Assembly: GCA_903842345.1 (NCBI GenBank)
Contig: CAIMLR010000036.1
Coordinates: 248,001-312,000, forward strand
Origin: an uncultured Myxococcales bacterium
GTDB lineage: Bacteria; Myxococcota_A; UBA9042
Direction: 5' to 3'
DNA length: 64,000 nt
Part shown: in pieces, positions 41,652-52,324 of the stretch
Position numbering within the stretch: position 1 is the first letter of the stretch
How the letters are laid out: every line of letters starts with the position of its first letter
Notes under the pieces: generated by a model
Databases searched by the model: none
What the model saw: the letters and a program-made list of their open reading frames with translations, nothing else
Told to the model about the DNA's origin: nothing
Program-made: the position numbers and the translations under genes

Positions 41652-41740
41652 CGCAACCCGTCTGGAACCATCTGAACGGGATAGTTATTTCTGATTCCCG
41701 CAGCAACACGCCCTTGACGCATGCCTGTGACGACGTAACA

Positions 41741-41870
41741 TGACGCCGCCGAGTTCCGCCTTCTGCGGAAACGGGGGACCCAACTTTTTGGGGCTAATCT
41801 GGCGCAAGGAAAGACTTCGCCTGACGGACACTTCTCGGTCCGAGCCCGTCAGCTAACCCCGTAGGCGTCG
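41741..41870 (+). promoter_or_regulatory. Cyclic di-AMP riboswitch (ydaO/yuaA type)
   Basis: Leader RNA element controlling the downstream potassium transporter gene. Hallmark conserved blocks are present in order: GGGGGACCCA (41773-41782), GGGGCTAATC (41790-41799), then CCGAGCCCG followed by TCAGCTAACCCCGTAGGCG (within 41840-41867), which is the most conserved part of the ydaO class. The closing stem is exact: GACGCC (41742-41747) pairs with GGCGTC (41864-41869). In this class c-di-AMP binding turns expression off. No clear terminator hairpin was seen between the aptamer and the gene, so control may be at translation. Confidence 0.9.
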
Positions 41871-41950
41871 AGGAGCGAGCCACCGACCAAGTGGGCCGGC
41901 CAGCAGCTCCGTCTGATTGTTCGGATCTTTCTGAACTGTTTGGGGCTCCG

Positions 41951-43903
41951 ATGCATCAGGTTCCGCCGGAACAATCCGGTTTTGCGCGCTTGCGCCGTTG
42001 GCTTCTGGGCAAGCCGCGCGATCTCGCCGACCACTCCATTTTCCATCAGCTCTCGCTGATTCCATTTCTCGCGTGGGTCGGCCTCGGCGCGGACGGCTTG
42101 TCGTCGTCGGCGTATGGCCCGCCTGAAGCGTTCGCCGCCCTTGGCTCGCACACATGGCTGGCCGTGGCGATGGCGGCAATGACCGCGATTACCGTCTTCA
42201 TCATCTCGATCGCCTACACGCGCATCATCGCCATTTTTCCCAACGGCGGCGGCGGCTACGTTGTCGCAACCAAGCTGCTCGGCCCGACGCCCGGCTTGGT
42301 CTCCGGTTCGGCGCTGCTCGTCGACTACGTCCTGACCGTCACCGTGTCCATCGCGGCGGCAGGTGACGCGCTGTTCAGTTTCCTGCCGCCGTCGTGGCAG
42401 GTCGCCAAGCTGTCGTGCGAAGTGGCGATCCTGATCGGCATGACCGTGCTGAACCTCCGCGGCGTGCGCGAGGCCATCCTGCCTTTGGTGCCGGTGTTCC
42501 TGCTCTTCCTCGTGACGCACATCATCCTCATCACCACGGGCCTGTTCTTTCACAACCAGGGGCTGCCGCTGACGCAGCAGGTCTCAGAAGGCTGGGTGCA
42601 CAGCAAGTCCTCGCTGGGCGTGATGGGGATGCTCTTGCTGTTTGCCCGCGCGTGGTCGTTGGGCGGCGGCACGTACACAGGCATTGAAGCGGTCTCCAAC
42701 GGCCTGCCGATCCTCCGCGAGCCGCGGGCCAAGACGGCGCGGCGGACGATGGCGTACATGGCGCTGTCCTTGGCCGCGACGGCGGCGGGCTTGCTGGTCG
42801 CGTACCTGCTGGCCGGCGTGCATCCCGTGGAGGGCCAGACGCTGAACGCGGTGCTGGCAGAGAAAGTGACGGCGCACTGGCCCGGCGGCAAGGCGTTTTC
42901 CGTCATCACGCTCGTGGCGGAAGGCGCGCTGCTCGTCGTGGGCGCGCAAGCGGGCTTTCTGGATGGCCCGCGCGTACTGGCCAACATGGCGCTGGACGGT
43001 TGGGCGCCGCGGCGCTTTGCCGCGCTGTCGGAGCGCCTGACGACCCAAAATGGCATCGCGCTCATTGGCATCGCGTCGCTGGCGGCGCTGCTGTACACGC
43101 GCGGCGACATCGGTTCGCTCGTTGTCATGTATTCCATCAACGTGTTCCTGACCTTTTCGCTGTCGATGCTCGGGATGCTGAAGCACTCCATCCGCGAGCG
43201 GCACATCGGCGACACGCTGCTGTTCACCGTCGGCTTTGGCCTTTGCGCGGCGATCCTGTGCGTGACGGCGAGCGAGAAATTCCTGGAAGGTGGATGGGTG
43301 ACGCTGCTCGTGACGATGGGCCTCGTTGCGCTTTTCGTGGCGATTCGCCGTCACTACCACTACGTGGCCGACCAACTGGTGCAGTTGGACCGGCACCTGC
43401 CGCCGATGGCGCCCATCACCGAGCAGCCCAAGCCGCTGCTGCCGGTTGCGCCGACCGCCGTGCTCCTTGTTGGCGGCTACAACGGAATTGGCTACGAGAC
43501 GCTGACCGCAGCGCTGCGCGCGTTTCCCGACCACTACAAGAACGTCGTCTTTGTCGCGGTCGGCGCCGTGGACTCGGCGGCGCTCAAGGACGAGACGGAA
43601 CTCATGCACGTCCGCGAGGGCGTCAACCACACGTTGGCGCGCTACGTGGCGCTGGGCGAATCGATGGGCTTGCGCGCCAAAGGCCTCTCGGCGATTGGCA
43701 CGGACATCGTCTCAGAGCTGGAGAAGCTGTGCCTGCACGCGGCCGATGAGACGCACGACGTGACGTTCTTTGCCGGCAAGCTCATGTTTGGCCGCGAGCA
43801 GTGGTGGCACGGCGTGCTGCACAACCAGACGGCGTTCGCGCTGCAGAAGCGCCTGCAATGGGACGGCTTCACGATGGTGATCCTGCCGGTGCGCATGCAC
43901 TGA
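41951..43903 (+). CDS. KimA-like potassium transporter (APC superfamily)
   Basis: Polytopic transporter of about 650 residues with 12 TM segments and a cytosolic C-terminal domain (about 480-650). It resembles Bacillus KimA, a high-affinity K+/H+ symporter: LLGKP near the start, then DGLSSSAYG, FPNGGGGYVV, GSALLVDYVLTVTVSIAAAG, LNLRGVRE and YTGIEAVSNGLP. The C-terminal part has a Rossmann-like opening (TAVLLVGGYNGIGYETLTAA). The upstream c-di-AMP riboswitch supports the potassium role. The ATG at 41951 is preferred because it leaves room for the aptamer; an in-frame GTG at 41891 is possible. Other APC amino-acid permeases are the alternative reading. Confidence 0.82.
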   Translation: MHQVPPEQSGFARLRRWLLGKPRDLADHSIFHQLSLIPFLAWVGLGADGLSSSAYGPPEAFAALGSHTWLAVAMAAMTAITVFIISIAYTRIIAIFPNGGGGYVVATKLLGPTPGLVSGSALLVDYVLTVTVSIAAAGDALFSFLPPSWQVAKLSCEVAILIGMTVLNLRGVREAILPLVPVFLLFLVTHIILITTGLFFHNQGLPLTQQVSEGWVHSKSSLGVMGMLLLFARAWSLGGGTYTGIEAVSNGLPILREPRAKTARRTMAYMALSLAATAAGLLVAYLLAGVHPVEGQTLNAVLAEKVTAHWPGGKAFSVITLVAEGALLVVGAQAGFLDGPRVLANMALDGWAPRRFAALSERLTTQNGIALIGIASLAALLYTRGDIGSLVVMYSINVFLTFSLSMLGMLKHSIRERHIGDTLLFTVGFGLCAAILCVTASEKFLEGGWVTLLVTMGLVALFVAIRRHYHYVADQLVQLDRHLPPMAPITEQPKPLLPVAPTAVLLVGGYNGIGYETLTAALRAFPDHYKNVVFVAVGAVDSAALKDETELMHVREGVNHTLARYVALGESMGLRAKGLSAIGTDIVSELEKLCLHAADETHDVTFFAGKLMFGREQWWHGVLHNQTAFALQKRLQWDGFTMVILPVRMH

Positions 43904-44025
43904 TCGCGCGAAGTCTGTTGCCCAAGTCCGAGCCGCCGCGGCAGTTTTGTGGACCACGATGGCGCATCCACGGCGACTGCGGCAGCATCCAATGCCAGCG
44001 CCATGTTTGGCGAAGACGGGTCACG

Positions 44026-44637
44026 ATGCGTCAGACTTTCCTGCTTCTTGCGATGCTCACGAGCGTAACGGCGTGTTCCTGGAATGACGTCAAGATCGCC
44101 GGCGTTCCTGCCCCGCCCGCAAACGGCGCGGCGCCGACCGCGCCTGCCACCGGAGACAAAGTGATCGATCACACAGTCAAGACCCTGGAAGGCGAGGAGA
44201 TTTCGCTGGCGCGCTACCGCGGCAAGACGCTGCTCATCGTCAACACGGCGAGCCAGTGCGGGCTAACGCCGCAATACGAGCAACTGGAGGCGCTGCAGCA
44301 GAAATACGCCAGCCGCGGATTCACCGTCCTCGGCTTCCCGTGCAACGATTTTGGCGCGCAGGAGCCGGGCAGCGCGGAGGAAATCAAGACGTTCTGCTCC
44401 AGCAAGTACCAGGTCAGCTTTCCGTTGTTTGAGAAAGTCCGCGCGCTGGGCGACAAGAGCCCGCTGTACAAGACGCTCACCGAGGAAGTGGATCCGGCGC
44501 TGCGTGGCGAGATCAAATGGAATTTCACCAAGTTCCTGGTCGATTCCAACGGCCACGTGGTGGCGCGCTTTGAGCCGCTGGTCAAGCCGCTGGATCCGCA
44601 GGTGACCGCGCAGATCGAGAAGCTGTTGCCGCAGTAG
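44026..44637 (+). CDS. Glutathione peroxidase-family lipoprotein (Cys form)
   Basis: Thioredoxin-fold peroxidase of 203 residues. Signal MRQTFLLLAMLTSVTAC gives Cys17 as a probable lipid site, followed by a Pro/Ala linker. The active-site block is NTASQCGLT (Cys78), the cysteine counterpart of the Sec form. Next come LGFPCNDFGAQEPG, holding the Gln and resolving-Cys region, and IKWNFTKFLVD with the catalytic Trp and Asn. All tetrad residues are present. It reduces hydroperoxides, probably with thioredoxin-like donors, in the periplasm. It uses Cys although the organism has a tRNA-Sec gene 8 kb away. Confidence 0.94.
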   Translation: MRQTFLLLAMLTSVTACSWNDVKIAGVPAPPANGAAPTAPATGDKVIDHTVKTLEGEEISLARYRGKTLLIVNTASQCGLTPQYEQLEALQQKYASRGFTVLGFPCNDFGAQEPGSAEEIKTFCSSKYQVSFPLFEKVRALGDKSPLYKTLTEEVDPALRGEIKWNFTKFLVDSNGHVVARFEPLVKPLDPQVTAQIEKLLPQ

Positions 44638-45899: not shown

Positions 45900-48800
45900 A
45901 TGCGTCAAGCCAATGGATCGACCGTGCGGAGCTTTGTGGCACAGGCCTTGCCGCTGCTGAGTCTGTTGGCGCTGGCGGGCTGCGTCGGCGTGCCGTCGCT
46001 GGACGCGTTCAAGTACGCGACCCAGGCCGAGCGCGAAGACGCGCAGCTCATCGGCGACATCGCTGGCACCGACGACGTGGCAACGGCCGATGAACCGGGC
46101 AATGACGTCTTGACGGGCGATGGGTCGGGCAAAACCGATGCGAGCGACGCCCAGGACACCAGTACCGATGCGGACACGGCGGACGTTGGCACGGACGCAG
46201 CGGATGCCAGCGATGCGGCGGATGCCAGCGATGCGGACGACGTCGACACCGGACCGGATGTGCCGCCGCCCGAATGCGTGACCTCGACGAACTGCGCCGG
46301 CAAGTGGACGGCGACCGAACTGGGCCAATGCTACGGCGCGGAATGCGTGAAGGGCGTTTGCAGCAAAGTCGCCAAGACGACCGCCTGTGACGACGCGGAC
46401 GCCTGCACGCTGGGCGACCTGTGCGTCGCCGGCAAGTGTACGGGCACGTCGATCCTGAGCTGCACCGACGGCGACGCGTGCTCCGCCGACAAGTGCGACC
46501 CGAAGACCGGCTGCTACTTCATCGCCGGCGCCGGCTGCGATGACGGCAACGTGTGCACCGCGGACACGTGCGACTTCAGCAACGCGTGCGTGCACTTGGC
46601 GGCGGACGCGACCTGCTCGGACGGCAATGCGTGCACCACGGGCGACACGTGCAGCAACAGCGTCTGCGTCGCGCTCGATGTGACCGTGTGCAATGACGAA
46701 AACGCCTGCACGGACGACAGCTGCGACCCGGCCACCGGCTGCGTCTTTCTGGCCAACAGCGTGACGTGCGACGACGGGGACATTTGCACGGTCGGCGATG
46801 CGTGCGGCGGCAGCGGCTGCGTGGCCGGCGCCAAGGACACGTGCAGCGACGGCAATCCGTGTACCGACGACGCGTGCGACAGCGGCGCGGGCTGTCTGCA
46901 CGTCAACAACTACGTCGGCTGCGACGACGGCAACAAATGCACGCCCGGGGACACGTGTCAGGGCGGCAACTGCGTTGGCTTGGCCGTCGCCGCGACGGCA
47001 TTTTGCAACGACGGCAACGCGTGCACCGACGACGCGTGCGACCCGCTGACCGGCTGCGCCCATGCCCACAACGCCGCGCCGTGCGACGACGGCCTGCCTT
47101 GCACCGTCGGCGACGTGTGCAGCGGCGGCAAATGCACGCCGGGCGCAAGCGCGTGCGAATGCAAGAAAGACGCCGATTGTGCGACGAAAGAAGACGGCAA
47201 TCCGTGTAACGGCACGCTGGTGTGCGACCTGTCCGCGGCGCCGTACAAGTGCGTCGTCTCCGCCAAGACGGTCGTGGTGTGCGACGCGAGCGGCGACTCG
47301 ACGTGCGCCAAGAACACCTGCAACAAGACGACCGGCGCGTGCGGCTACGTCGCCCAGCAAGAAGGCGGCGCATGCGACGCGGACGGCTCCGTGTGCACGG
47401 ACAACGACAGCTGCAAGAGCGGCAACTGCACGCCCGGCGCGGCGATTGACTGCGACGATGGCCAGCCGTGCACCACGGATAGCTGCGACAAGATCAACAG
47501 CTGCCAGCACGTCAACAACGCCAACGCCTGCAACGACGGCAACGCGTGCACGATTGGCGATGTCTGCGGCGGCGGCGCATGCGTGCCCGGGACCAAGACG
47601 GTCTGCGACGACGGCAACGCGTGCACGGCCGACAGCTGCAACGCCAGCACGGGCAACTGCAACTACGCCATCCAATTTGCGACGACGTGCAGCGACGGCA
47701 ACGCGTGCAGCCAGAACGACGCGTGCGACGCCGCCGGCCAGTGCGTTGGCGCGGCGGTCACGTGCAACGACGGCCTGGTGTGCACGAGCGACAGCTGCAA
47801 TCCGGCGAGCGGCTGCGTCTACACACCGAACACGATTGCCTGCAACGACAGCAACGCCTGCACGAACAATGACGCGTGCAGCGGCGGCACGTGCGCGGGA
47901 ACGGCTGTAACCGTCGCGACCTTCTGCGATGACGGCAACCCGTGCACGATCGACACGTGCGACCCGAGCATCGGCTGCAAGCATGCCGGCAACACCAACG
48001 CACCGTGCGACGACGGCAACACCTGCACCAGCGGCGACTATTGCGTCGGGACGGTTTGCACTTCAGGCGTCAACAGTTGCACGTGCGCCAGCAACTTTGA
48101 CTGCGCCTCGCAAGAAGACAACAACTTGTGCAACGGCACCCTGTTCTGCGACCTGCAGACGTTCCCGTACAACTGCAAGGTCGACCCGACGACTGTCGTG
48201 GTCTGCAGCGGCATCGGCGACACGACGTGCGCGAAGAACACGTGCGTGCCAGCCTCGGGCGCGTGCACGCCGCAAGCGCAGAACAACGGCGCATCGTGCA
48301 ATGCCGACAACTCCGTTTGCACATCCGGCGACAAGTGCAGCGCAGGCGCGTGCAATGCCGGGGGCACGCTGGACTGCAACGACGCCAACCCGTGCACGTC
48401 CGACGCGTGCGACTCCGTGAACGGCTGCACGCACACGGCCAACGCCAACGCCTGCAACGACGGCAACGCGTGCACGACAAACGACGTGTGCAGCAACACG
48501 CAGTGCACGGCGGGCGCAGCGGTTGTCTGCAATGACAACAACGTGTGCACAACCGACGCGTGCAACCCGGCGAGTGGCGCGTGCAGCTATGTGAACAACA
48601 ACGCGAGTTGCGACGACGGCAGCCTGTGCACGACCAACGACAAATGCGGCGGCGGCGCGTGCGGCGGCACGGCGATCAACTGCAACGACAGCAACGTCTG
48701 CACGGATGACAGCTGCGTCGCGTCGACCGGCTGCACCAACGTCGGCAACAGCGCGAACTGCTCGGACGGCAACCCGTGCACGGTGAGCGACTCGTGCGCC

Positions 48801-51800
48801 AACAAGACCTGCCAGCCGGGCAACACCAAGAACTGCAACGACAACAACGTCTGCACGACGGATTCCTGCAACGTCCAGGACGGCACGTGTGCGAACACGG
48901 CCAACACCGTCGGCTGCAACGACGCCAACGCGTGCACGAGCGGCGACGTGTGCAGCGGCAAGGTCTGCAGCGGCACGGCCATCACGTGCACGGACAACAA
49001 CCTGTGCACCGCGGACACGTGCTCGGCGGCCAAGGGCTGCGACTACGCGCCGAGCGTGAATTGCGACGATGGCAACGTCTGTTCGCTGGACGCGTGCACG
49101 CCCGCGACGGGCGCATGCACGCACAGCCTGCTCGCCGGCCTCTCGTGCGAAGACGGCGACCCGTGCACCACGCAGGATTACTGCACTTACTTCACGGACG
49201 CGGCCAACGGCACGACCGACACCTCCAAGTTCGTCTGCGCGGCCGGCGCCGGCGCGGTGTGCGACGACGGCAACGCATGCACCTCGGACACCTGCAACTA
49301 CGGCACGACGCACAGTTGCGCCCACGCGGCCATGCCGGGCGGAACGTCGTGCGGGACGTGCTCCGTCAACAACGGCGTGAACTGGTTCGCGCCCGGCACG
49401 TGCAGCGCCACAACCTGCACGCTCAGCAGCGCGACCACGTGCGACGATGGCAACCAATGCACCGACGACGTCTGCTACAACGGCGCGGGCTGCACGCACA
49501 TGTCCATGGCCGGCAAGGAGTGCAATGACGGCACCGACTGCACCGTCAAGGACCTGTGCTCGGCGCAAAACACCTGCACAGGGCTCAACGCCTGCGACGA
49601 CAACAATCCGTGCACGACCGATTCCTGCAGCGTCGTTGGCGCGAAGGTGATGTGCGTCAACGACGCGATGCCCAAGGGCGCCGCATGCGACGACGGCAAC
49701 GCATGCACAACGGGCGATACCTGCGACGCCAGCCAGACCTGCAACGCGACGGACGTCAAATGCGACGACGGCCTGCAGTGCACGGCGGACACCTGCGACG
49801 TCGCGACCGGATGCGTGTTCACCAACATGGGCGGAAGCTTCTGCTCGGGCTCGCAGGACTGCCAGCCGGGCGCGTCCTGCCTGAACAGCCACTGCTGGGT
49901 AGCGTGCGACGACGGCAATCCCTGCACGAGCAGCGACAACTGCGGCGGTGGCACATGCAACGCCAGCGGCATCGTCGGCGCCATCAGCTGCACCAAGAGC
50001 AGCGACTGCGGCAGCAGCGGAGCGTCGTGCAGCAACGGCTACTGCGCCAACACCTGCAGCGACGGCAACGTCTGCACGGTCAATGACTACTGCTTCTCCG
50101 GCTCGTGCGTGGGCTCCGCCAACAGCTGCAACGACAGCAACCCGTGCACCACCGACAGCTGCTCGCAATCCGCCGGCTGCTTGCATACCGCCGCCGCGGA
50201 TGACGGCAACCCATGCACCAATGACTTCTGTGCGGCTGGGGTCGGCACCATCACCCACAGCAACGTCGGCGACGGTCTGCAGTGCGGCGCCGCCAACTAC
50301 TGCAAGGCCGGCACCTGCACGGCATGCGGCGCGGGCACCATTGCCACGCCCTACGACGACAACGGCACGGCGCAGCTCATCTGCGCCTTTGATTACCCCA
50401 TTTGGGGCATCCGGCCATTGAGCCCTGCCAGCTTCACCAACAACGGCGACAACACCGTGACCGACAACGTCACCGGCTTGATGTGGATGCTGGGCACGTA
50501 TTCGATCAACACGTTTGGCTATGCGACCGCGATTTGCGACGCGCAGGCGACCTATGGCAACAAGTACGATTGGCGCCTGCCGACGGTCGCCGAACTGCAG
50601 ACCATCAACGACTACGTGCTGCAAAACGGCTACAGCCTCAGCAGCGCGTTCTACGGCCAGGGCTCCAGACTCTGGGCGCAGCCGGCCATCGCCACCAACA
50701 ACGCGTTTGACCTGAACACGCTTGGCGGCGCGATCGAGTACCTGAGCAACACCAACTCCTTCAACCTCAAGTGCGTTCGCGGCCAGAGCGCCATCACGCC
50801 GCCCGGGACGCGCTACGCGGTCTCCGCCGACCAGGCGAGCGTCTACGACAATGTGACAAACATCCTCTGGCTGCGGGCCACCACGTCGAGCGACTTGCCA
50901 ACCGCGGCCGCGACGTGCACCGGCACTGGCGCGGGCTGGCGGCTGCCCAATATCCGCGAGTTGGAGTCGATCGTCGACCGCAGCAACGCGCCGACCAGCT
51001 ACTTCAACGCCACCGGCTTTGGCACCCAGACCGCCGGCGGTTACTGGAGCAGCACGCCGCTCAGCACCGGCAGCGGCGCAAATCCGCCGTTTTGGACCGT
51101 CAACTTCACCGACGGCACCTCCGGCACTGCGGCCAACAACACCGCAAACCGCGCGCGCTGCATGACCAACTGCGATGACGGCAACCCGTGCACGACCGAC
51201 AGCTTCGACAAGAGCACGTGGCTGTGCAAGCACACCAGTGCCACCGACGGTGCGGCGTGCGGCGGCGCGGGCACCTGCGCCTCGGGCGCGTGCAGTTGCC
51301 CGGCGGGGGCATACGGCGTGGCGATTGACGACAACAGCGCGGTCAAGTTCCAGTGCGTGTTCGACTATCCGGTCTGGGGCGTCACAACGTTGGCGCCGCC
51401 CAACCAATCCAACAACAGCGACGGCACGGTCTCCGACGGCAAGACCGGCTTGATGTGGCAGGACGGCAAGGGCTCCGCGGCGACCCTGAACTGGAGCCAG
51501 GCCAGGACCTACTGCGAAAACCTGACGCTCGCCAGCAAGGCCGATTGGCGCCTGCCGTCGGTCGCCGAATTGGAGAGCATCGTCGACTACACCACCGCGT
51601 CGGCGGGCCCGAACATCAGCAGCGCGTTCAACAGCGGCACCGTCACGACCGGCTACTGGACCGGCCGCGGCAACGCGCAGGCCAGCAGCAACGCGTGGGA
51701 AGTCGTATTCGCCCAAGGCCTGACGAGTTCATCCCCCGCCGCCAGCACGTACCTCAACGCACGCTGTGTCCGCGGCGGGCCGATGTCGGGCGGCTCTGGC

Positions 51801-52145
51801 ACGCGGTTCAACAACATCGGTGGCACACCCACAGCGGTCAAGGACAACGTCACCGGCTTGACGTGGGAGCAGTCCGCGCACGCCGGCGGTGGCACCTACA
51901 TCCAATCGCTCGCCGGCGCGGCCTGTCTCTCGCCCTACCACCTGCCCAATATCCGCGAGTTGGCGTCCATCGTCGATCGCAGCCTCGCCTCAACGCCCGC
52001 GCTCAACGCGGCGCTCAGCGGCGGCAGCGGCACCTTCTGGTCGGCGACGTTGATGAGCAGCTATGGCCTCAGCATCAACTTCACGACGGGCGCCTACGGC
52101 TTTGGCAACAACGCCAACGCGTACTTCGTGCGCTGCGTGAAATAG
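45900..52145 (+). CDS. Giant Cys-repeat lipoprotein with four DUF1566 domains
   Basis: Predicted surface lipoprotein of 2081 residues. The signal ends LLALAGC (Cys28), followed by an Asp/Ala/Thr linker (about 50-120) and several dozen Cys-rich units on the theme CNDGNACTxxDxCxxxxC to about residue 1430. The C-terminus has four DUF1566 (Lcl-like) domains in the order A-B-A-B: type A has DNVTGLMW and DWRLPTVAEL (then DWRLPSVAEL), type B has WRLPNIREL (then HLPNIREL). DUF1566 domains in other bacteria bind glycans or host matrix. A segment of about 300 residues carrying CNGTLVCDL and TCAKNTC is also duplicated. Probable adhesin; the ligand is unknown. Confidence 0.88.
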   Translation: MRQANGSTVRSFVAQALPLLSLLALAGCVGVPSLDAFKYATQAEREDAQLIGDIAGTDDVATADEPGNDVLTGDGSGKTDASDAQDTSTDADTADVGTDAADASDAADASDADDVDTGPDVPPPECVTSTNCAGKWTATELGQCYGAECVKGVCSKVAKTTACDDADACTLGDLCVAGKCTGTSILSCTDGDACSADKCDPKTGCYFIAGAGCDDGNVCTADTCDFSNACVHLAADATCSDGNACTTGDTCSNSVCVALDVTVCNDENACTDDSCDPATGCVFLANSVTCDDGDICTVGDACGGSGCVAGAKDTCSDGNPCTDDACDSGAGCLHVNNYVGCDDGNKCTPGDTCQGGNCVGLAVAATAFCNDGNACTDDACDPLTGCAHAHNAAPCDDGLPCTVGDVCSGGKCTPGASACECKKDADCATKEDGNPCNGTLVCDLSAAPYKCVVSAKTVVVCDASGDSTCAKNTCNKTTGACGYVAQQEGGACDADGSVCTDNDSCKSGNCTPGAAIDCDDGQPCTTDSCDKINSCQHVNNANACNDGNACTIGDVCGGGACVPGTKTVCDDGNACTADSCNASTGNCNYAIQFATTCSDGNACSQNDACDAAGQCVGAAVTCNDGLVCTSDSCNPASGCVYTPNTIACNDSNACTNNDACSGGTCAGTAVTVATFCDDGNPCTIDTCDPSIGCKHAGNTNAPCDDGNTCTSGDYCVGTVCTSGVNSCTCASNFDCASQEDNNLCNGTLFCDLQTFPYNCKVDPTTVVVCSGIGDTTCAKNTCVPASGACTPQAQNNGASCNADNSVCTSGDKCSAGACNAGGTLDCNDANPCTSDACDSVNGCTHTANANACNDGNACTTNDVCSNTQCTAGAAVVCNDNNVCTTDACNPASGACSYVNNNASCDDGSLCTTNDKCGGGACGGTAINCNDSNVCTDDSCVASTGCTNVGNSANCSDGNPCTVSDSCANKTCQPGNTKNCNDNNVCTTDSCNVQDGTCANTANTVGCNDANACTSGDVCSGKVCSGTAITCTDNNLCTADTCSAAKGCDYAPSVNCDDGNVCSLDACTPATGACTHSLLAGLSCEDGDPCTTQDYCTYFTDAANGTTDTSKFVCAAGAGAVCDDGNACTSDTCNYGTTHSCAHAAMPGGTSCGTCSVNNGVNWFAPGTCSATTCTLSSATTCDDGNQCTDDVCYNGAGCTHMSMAGKECNDGTDCTVKDLCSAQNTCTGLNACDDNNPCTTDSCSVVGAKVMCVNDAMPKGAACDDGNACTTGDTCDASQTCNATDVKCDDGLQCTADTCDVATGCVFTNMGGSFCSGSQDCQPGASCLNSHCWVACDDGNPCTSSDNCGGGTCNASGIVGAISCTKSSDCGSSGASCSNGYCANTCSDGNVCTVNDYCFSGSCVGSANSCNDSNPCTTDSCSQSAGCLHTAAADDGNPCTNDFCAAGVGTITHSNVGDGLQCGAANYCKAGTCTACGAGTIATPYDDNGTAQLICAFDYPIWGIRPLSPASFTNNGDNTVTDNVTGLMWMLGTYSINTFGYATAICDAQATYGNKYDWRLPTVAELQTINDYVLQNGYSLSSAFYGQGSRLWAQPAIATNNAFDLNTLGGAIEYLSNTNSFNLKCVRGQSAITPPGTRYAVSADQASVYDNVTNILWLRATTSSDLPTAAATCTGTGAGWRLPNIRELESIVDRSNAPTSYFNATGFGTQTAGGYWSSTPLSTGSGANPPFWTVNFTDGTSGTAANNTANRARCMTNCDDGNPCTTDSFDKSTWLCKHTSATDGAACGGAGTCASGACSCPAGAYGVAIDDNSAVKFQCVFDYPVWGVTTLAPPNQSNNSDGTVSDGKTGLMWQDGKGSAATLNWSQARTYCENLTLASKADWRLPSVAELESIVDYTTASAGPNISSAFNSGTVTTGYWTGRGNAQASSNAWEVVFAQGLTSSSPAASTYLNARCVRGGPMSGGSGTRFNNIGGTPTAVKDNVTGLTWEQSAHAGGGTYIQSLAGAACLSPYHLPNIRELASIVDRSLASTPALNAALSGGSGTFWSATLMSSYGLSINFTTGAYGFGNNANAYFVRCVK
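46386..50190 (+). repeat. Array of degenerate Cys-rich CDDG/CT repeats
   Basis: In-frame repeats of roughly 35-45 codons encoding C-(D/N)-D-G-x-x-C-T plus D-x-C. Near-identical DNA words such as GACGGCAACGCGTGCAC recur many times (for example around 47020, 47530, 47615 and 48460). Such arrays can expand or contract by recombination. Two larger blocks, starting near 47150 and near 48080, share the same succession of motifs. Confidence 0.85.
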
Positions 52146-52227: not shown

Positions 52228-52324
52228 GGAGGCGCCCGAGTTCTGGTGGGCTCCCCGGTCTTCAAAACCGGTGTGAGGCGTGACGAGCGTCTCGGGGGAG
52301 TTCGATTCTCCTGCGCTTCCGCCA
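52228..52324 (+). tRNA. selC: tRNA-Sec (anticodon TCA)
   Basis: Selenocysteine tRNA of 97 nt. The bacterial 8+5 architecture is complete: 8-bp acceptor GGAGGCGC with GCGCTTCC (one G-U), 5-bp T stem GGGAG/CTCCT around TTCGATT, and a long variable arm with stem GAGGCG/CGTCTC. The anticodon stem CCGGT/ACCGG encloses loop CTTCAAA with anticodon TCA at 52262-52264. The 3' GCCA is encoded. It reads UGA as Sec together with SelB. No selA, selB or selD is in the window. Confidence 0.95.

Follow-up and report, generated by a model that had tools for sequence, protein, structure and literature searches.

A c-di-AMP riboswitch ahead of a KimA-type potassium importer gene in a lake Myxococcota genome, with a putative translational anti-Shine-Dalgarno scheme

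c-di-AMP riboswitches in front of K+ transporters have already been predicted in Proteobacteria and Verrucomicrobia (PMC6488665), and according to the same source control of kdp is seemingly restricted to Bacillales. A pseudoknot is mentioned for the solved aptamer structure (PMC5393176). For C. glutamicum nlpC, the scheme that we consider here has been proposed, and reporter data point to translation (PMC9960051). In the B. subtilis transporter KimA, K+ is coordinated by Asp36, Tyr43, Thr230 and Tyr377, and the c-di-AMP contacts include Arg337, His579, Asn580, Gln581 and Ser582, the last of these positions being Thr in some relatives (PMC10284832).

Here we describe a locus of this type in a 64 kb stretch of DNA (the window; C36:248001-312000) from a Myxococcota genome of 5.85 Mb in 50 contigs (95.7% complete). 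An initial annotation, made from the sequence alone, had proposed that a ydaO riboswitch with a perfect closing stem stands before a transporter with strong KimA resemblance.

The aptamer and the transporter

A covariance search of the 64 kb with the c-di-AMP riboswitch model RF00379 returned a plus-strand match at 41737-41882 (85.1 bits, E 2.1e-18; gathering score 38) in which all model positions, 1-134, are covered. This is one of the checks that the initial annotation had suggested, and the match above gathering bears out its ydaO assignment. The closing stem is genuine (CGCC/GGCG) but short, with 4 nt in each strand. In the genome-wide search there was no second RF00379 copy.

41737..41882, plus strand: c-di-AMP (ydaO/yuaA) riboswitch aptamer, RF00379 match
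41747..41750, plus strand: P1 closing stem, 5' strand CGCC, from the Rfam alignment
41864..41867, plus strand: P1 closing stem, 3' strand GGCG, from the Rfam alignment
41831..41836, plus strand: loop L6 strand CTTCTC, pairing with the tail at 41870-41875
41870..41876, plus strand: aptamer tail GAGGAGC, the proposed switching strand, which would form the pseudoknot when bound and pair with 41906-41910 when free

The RNAs reaching gathering in the Rfam search of the window were this aptamer and one tRNA-Sec, with none further. The tRNA-Sec gene (52228-52320, plus strand; RF01852, 70.6 bits; 52228-52324 according to ARAGORN) lies just 3' of the gene for a 2081-aa repetitive, Cys-rich protein (45900-52145).

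The tail GAGGAG (41870-41875), located 3' of P1, is complementary to CTTCTC in L6 (41831-41836), which constitutes the pseudoknot pairing. We examined this pairing in 44 distinct riboswitch loci, obtained by merging the phylum and KimA-relative sets described below with six repeats removed (43 above gathering; one, L159, below). The fit of each loop to its own tail gave a mean best helix of 7.68 bp, a count that may take in one or two bases belonging to P1 or P6, compared to 6.00 bp (sd 0.18, maximum 6.57) when the tails were swapped among the loops; the observed value was reached in 0 of 500 rounds. With the set collapsed to 37 loci, the helix was 7.41 bp, whereas 1000 permutations gave at most 6.41. 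The E value of the aptamer match rules out a chance or decayed match, a reading to which we give a negligible probability and against which RF00379 is also present in all five sampled genomes of the genus and the long-range L6/tail pairing is maintained.

The core blocks of the aptamer are kept, and comparison with the consensus revealed U for G in J4/5 and AC for UA in J5/6. All five genus aptamers have GGGGCUAAU or GGGGCUCAU in place of the consensus GGGGUGAAU, and all five have AC instead of the consensus UA between P5 and P6. The two variants co-occur also in the distant locus L149, whose aptamer combines CUAAU with the AC junction as in the window's genus. U71 and A72 appear among the ligand contacts listed in a review (PMC7288161); we infer that they are the consensus UA of J5/6, and the changed junctions are ones thought to line one ligand site. 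The genus aptamers might accordingly form a variant class, still in control of K+ uptake, whose altered pocket has a different affinity or senses a different cyclic dinucleotide. The departures common to all five aptamers and the listed contacts favour this idea, yet the core blocks are intact, the score is high, kimA is still downstream, a cyclase is encoded in the genome and the UA positions also vary among other kimA-linked members. We regard an altered pocket as very improbable and treat the genus-wide change as no more than a hint about ligand affinity or specificity.

Downstream of the aptamer lies the transporter gene:

41951..43903, plus strand: kimA-like K+ transporter, 650 aa, with a C-terminal cytosolic domain (phmmer, Foldseek, VIA-align)

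By sequence, its nearest solved structure is KimA 6s3k (phmmer, E 9.3e-62; stretch 33-502, plus a weak second stretch, 633-664). Structure prediction with 13 sequences as input gave a model (mean pLDDT 76.6) whose top three Foldseek matches were the KimA entries 8b70, 8b71 and 6s3k. In the VIA-align comparison with 8b71, 35-650 were aligned (Z 45.0, rmsd 13.2, 526 residues); the KimA entries scored Z 43-45, followed by the next best entry with Z 33. Taken over both domains together, the fit to KimA has a large rmsd (13 A), and the identity in the structure alignments is 25-28%. All four K+ ligands have identical counterparts (D48, Y55, T243 and Y394), and those of the c-di-AMP pocket are R354, H624, N625, Q626 and T627, with Thr replacing Ser582. 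The sequence, the predicted fold and the four K+ ligand residues agree that the gene product is a KimA relative, and the resemblance noted in the initial annotation holds on each of these counts.

The same residues were followed through 96 aligned rows, 31 with the riboswitch motif upstream and 65 without; some genomes are counted twice, and 6 of the 65 motif-less rows have <300 nt of upstream sequence. Tyr43, Thr230 and Tyr377 are unchanged in 96/96 rows and Asp36, His579 and Asn580 in 95/96, the remaining row being a gap in each case. At the Arg337 position the rows divide into 44 with R, 49 with H, 2 with K and 1 with S. The protein-level c-di-AMP pocket thus looks kept, with Arg337 varying, whether or not there is a riboswitch.

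The Pfam name of the family, AA_permease_2, would suit a transporter that imports something other than K+, such as an amino acid. Against this, the closest solved structure is KimA by both sequence and fold, the K+ ligands are conserved, and K+-uptake families are found downstream at 41 of the 44 riboswitch loci. Given the KimA homology and the kept ligands, an amino acid permease function is unlikely, and we consider the chance of any non-K+ substrate to be slight.

On the same strand behind kimA there is a glutathione peroxidase domain (PF00255; window positions 43801-44637), in a frame with a lipoprotein-like start.

The host genome and the distribution of the pairing

Myxococcota were formerly placed with the Deltaproteobacteria, and the host, initially described as deltaproteobacteria-like, is a Myxococcota MAG judged by its named relatives: among the best 80 KimA relatives, the transporters of the closest named genomes (L045-L048, uncultured Myxococcales MAGs) are 79-90% identical. 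The initial annotation had also predicted that the host makes c-di-AMP, with a diadenylate cyclase gene as the thing to look for, and that it turns off potassium uptake by this means. The genome has one DAC gene, whose CdaA_N domain identifies a CdaA-type cyclase, so that c-di-AMP synthesis is supported at the gene level. From their sequence, we read the flanking frames as folP and cdaR (ybbR). There is one gene for a PgpH-type phosphodiesterase, a 7TM-HD protein whose domains are those of PgpH, and the genome also encodes a DHH-DHHA1 protein. Of the 377 phylum genomes, 338 have DAC, including all 13 riboswitch genomes; the presence of a cyclase is therefore to be expected and is by itself weak evidence for the riboswitch.

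Four families of K+ importer were sought in the genome. KdpA is present and KimA occurs as a single copy; the family search found no TrkH, and no Kup above threshold, with a sub-threshold match inside kimA itself. With a genome completeness of 95.7%, the TrkH and Kup absences are provisional.

Under strict filters, which make the count a lower bound, RF00379 was found in at least 13 of the 377 phylum genomes, 5 of them from the window's genus; KimA relatives (E 1e-30) occur in 29/377. Downstream of the 13 riboswitches are 11 KimA genes, one Kup gene and one contig end (L008), where no K+ gene was seen in the adjoining sequence. The 80 best KimA relatives come from 78 genomes, of which 32 have an RF00379 match, 31 of them above gathering; as these genomes were picked for having KimA, their count of downstream genes is biased. 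In a motif search of the 80 best, the riboswitch core lies <=700 nt upstream of kimA in 26/80 named KimA genes. The named groups with the pairing include Planctomycetota, Latescibacterota, Eisenbacteria, Sumerlaeota, Spirochaetes, Verrucomicrobia, Lentisphaerae, Geobacteraceae and Candidatus Electronema.

The K+-uptake genes at the 41 loci comprise 33 KimA, 5 Kup, 2 TrkH and 1 KdpA. The remaining three are L008, already mentioned, L147, where a methyltransferase-domain gene (1804-2703) follows RF00379 and is the sole downstream gene without a visible K+ link, and L149, where a truncated TrkH-like frame (1697-2032) lies between the riboswitch and a ThuA gene and is perhaps a decayed transporter copy.

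Several single loci had unusual arrangements. The order is KimA-riboswitch-KimA in L130 (G393:C648) and KimA-riboswitch-Kup in L155 (G434:C25; Trichlorobacter thiogenes). In L146 (G386:C177), from a genome reached via the Phycisphaerae MAG locus L054, RF00379 stands before kdpF-kdpA outside Bacillales. The KimA of L049 (MGEI01000005.1) is 69% identical to that of the window, in a record labelled Candidatus Uhrbacteria; its occurrence in this unexpected taxon may reflect transfer or a misplaced contig.

The kimA leader and its putative switch

41714..41741, plus strand: promoter-like pair, TTGACG (41714-41719), 16 nt, TAACAT (41736-41741), from a consensus scan
41905..41910, plus strand: anti-Shine-Dalgarno strand AGCTCC, complementary to the tail and to the Shine-Dalgarno sequence
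41942..41947, plus strand: Shine-Dalgarno-like GGGGCT, read from the sequence, pairing with 41905-41910

The consensus scan found one promoter-like pair in the leader where 0.2 were expected, and TTGAC was also seen by eye in four same-genus leaders. From this candidate promoter, the RNA would start at about the closing stem. For the start codon, ATG 41951 aligns with an ATG in 5/5 genus leaders and is 5 nt from GGGG (41942-41945). GTG 41891 (ORF 41891-43903) was rejected as a start, there being an in-frame stop after the GTG in L006 and no GTG in L010. The most plausible coding region is 41951-43903.

The tail, which is similar to a Shine-Dalgarno sequence, has three apparent uses across the leaders. 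In five of the 44 (L014, L128, L130, L136 and L156), a start codon is within about 20 nt of P1, and here the tail itself seems to be the ribosome site. In 9/36 leaders the start is preceded by a run of at least five U, several times behind a G+C hairpin, which is terminator-like. In the window's genus, where no terminator was seen, a strand AGCTCC or AACTCC is complementary to the tail or to the Shine-Dalgarno sequence. The Gram-negative members thus seem to differ in platform: terminator, anti-Shine-Dalgarno strand, or Shine-Dalgarno sequence inside the tail.

In the five genus leaders, the tail/anti-Shine-Dalgarno helix is paired in 28/30 cells (93.3%), with both bases differing between leaders at one pair (U-A, C-G and U-G), and RNAalifold given these leaders alone picked this helix unprompted. 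The anti-Shine-Dalgarno/Shine-Dalgarno helix is paired in 85.7% of cells, and at one of its pairs two leaders have A-U and two have G-C. Column shuffles reached the observed value in 249/500 cases for the former helix and the observed values in 28 to 130 of 500 for the latter structure, which as tested also held a hairpin pairing in 57.1% of cells. Because of the close relationship of the five leaders, the tests are not independent and the shuffle controls are not decisive. We conclude that the two competing helices exist as possible pairings with slight covariation.

We also scored each leader for a strand fitting both the tail and the Shine-Dalgarno sequence, relative to shuffles. This three-strand test covered 36/44 loci, leaving aside three with no identified start (L008, L146 and L147) and the five with the start too near the tail. 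Four relatives gave p 0.01, 0.025, 0.01 and 0.01, and the window leader itself p 0.109. In the leaders without a U run the combined signal was marked (n 27, Fisher p 4e-4, inflated by relatedness), and for the 22 of these outside the genus a hand reckoning gave a combined p of about 0.1. The U-run leaders had no anti-Shine-Dalgarno signal (n 9, p 0.90).

In energy folding, masking the tail clearly lowered the accessibility of the Shine-Dalgarno sequence in the window alone, from about 0.5 to 0.1 for the first bases, with little or mixed effect in four relatives. In the energy model, the Shine-Dalgarno sequence is mostly paired in L006 and L010 even with the tail free, and no clear switching was seen in L007 and L009. 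With a clear effect limited to the window, thermodynamic folding is unconvincing as proof of switching.

From the aptamer, the transporter family, the cyclase and phosphodiesterase genes and the pseudoknot pairing, all established here, we infer the ligand, an OFF direction, translation as the level of control and K+ transport, as follows. CdaA would make c-di-AMP, probably when K+ is plentiful, as in Firmicutes. Binding to the kimA-leader aptamer would fix the pseudoknot between L6 and the GAGGAG tail; AGCTCC, with its tail partner taken, would pair with the Shine-Dalgarno GGGGCT and block translation. Without c-di-AMP, the tail would pair with AGCTCC and leave the ribosome site freer. Synthesis of the importer would in this way stop when potassium is plentiful and, since the pocket motif is kept in the protein, c-di-AMP probably acts on the protein as well, inhibiting the transporter once it is made.

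The same riboswitch and OFF logic could instead act on transcription, through termination within the leader, either Rho-dependent or weak intrinsic. A Firmicutes kdp member does work by termination (PMC6488665), and besides the U runs in 9/36 leaders, a G+C hairpin and then a U run before the start can be seen by eye in, for example, L142, L144, L152 and L154. However, the leader scan found no terminator-like site in the window, and the anti-Shine-Dalgarno signal is in the leaders without a U run and not in those with one. We see termination as a distinctly less probable alternative. A translational OFF switch is supported with moderate confidence by the leader comparisons, and the full account, in which the KimA-type K+ importer of a freshwater (lake) Myxococcota is controlled by a c-di-AMP riboswitch through an anti-Shine-Dalgarno scheme, is the one that we consider reasonably probable.

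Comparison with known systems

The initial annotation had pointed to the occurrence in a Gram-negative of a pairing well known in Firmicutes. The surprise is smaller than this suggests, the pairing being already predicted and found here in many Gram-negative groups: the window's riboswitch and kimA are not unique, and represent a known switch type in a little-studied group. We do not claim the Gram-negative cases as first reports. The Myxococcota kimA case and three platforms on one tail were not found in the literature passages covered. What is added here is the leader anatomy: no terminator, an L6/tail pseudoknot, and an alternative pairing of the tail with the anti-Shine-Dalgarno strand. 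The c-di-AMP/K+ circuit, investigated so far mainly in Gram-positives, is extended to a Myxococcota genome in which cyclase, phosphodiesterase and target are all encoded. The locus also gives a testable account in which one aptamer tail could serve platforms of three kinds, with a terminator, with an anti-Shine-Dalgarno competitor or with the tail as ribosome site, and it opens translational control by c-di-AMP to direct test in Gram-negative bacteria.

The window resembles the B. subtilis ydaO/kimA riboswitch (RF00379) in aptamer class, pseudoknot, place before KimA and expected OFF logic, and differs in its Gram-negative Myxococcota host and in having an anti-Shine-Dalgarno strand where no leader terminator was found. 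Its protein shares with B. subtilis KimA (6s3k, 8b70, 8b71) the fold, the K+ ligands, the HNQ pocket motif and the Arg337 equivalent, and differs in sequence (25-28% identity in structure alignments) and in Thr for Ser582; its transport is predicted. The Bacillus thuringiensis kdpFABC riboswitch is likewise a c-di-AMP riboswitch on a K+ importer, but uses an intrinsic terminator (PMC6488665), and L146, outside Bacillales, has a kdp riboswitch too. For the C. glutamicum nlpC riboswitch, translational control is similarly proposed, CTCC pairing with an upstream GGAG or with the ribosome site; there the gene encodes a cell-wall peptidase and reporters were used (PMC9960051), whereas here it encodes a K+ importer and the evidence for the proposed scheme comes from sequence.
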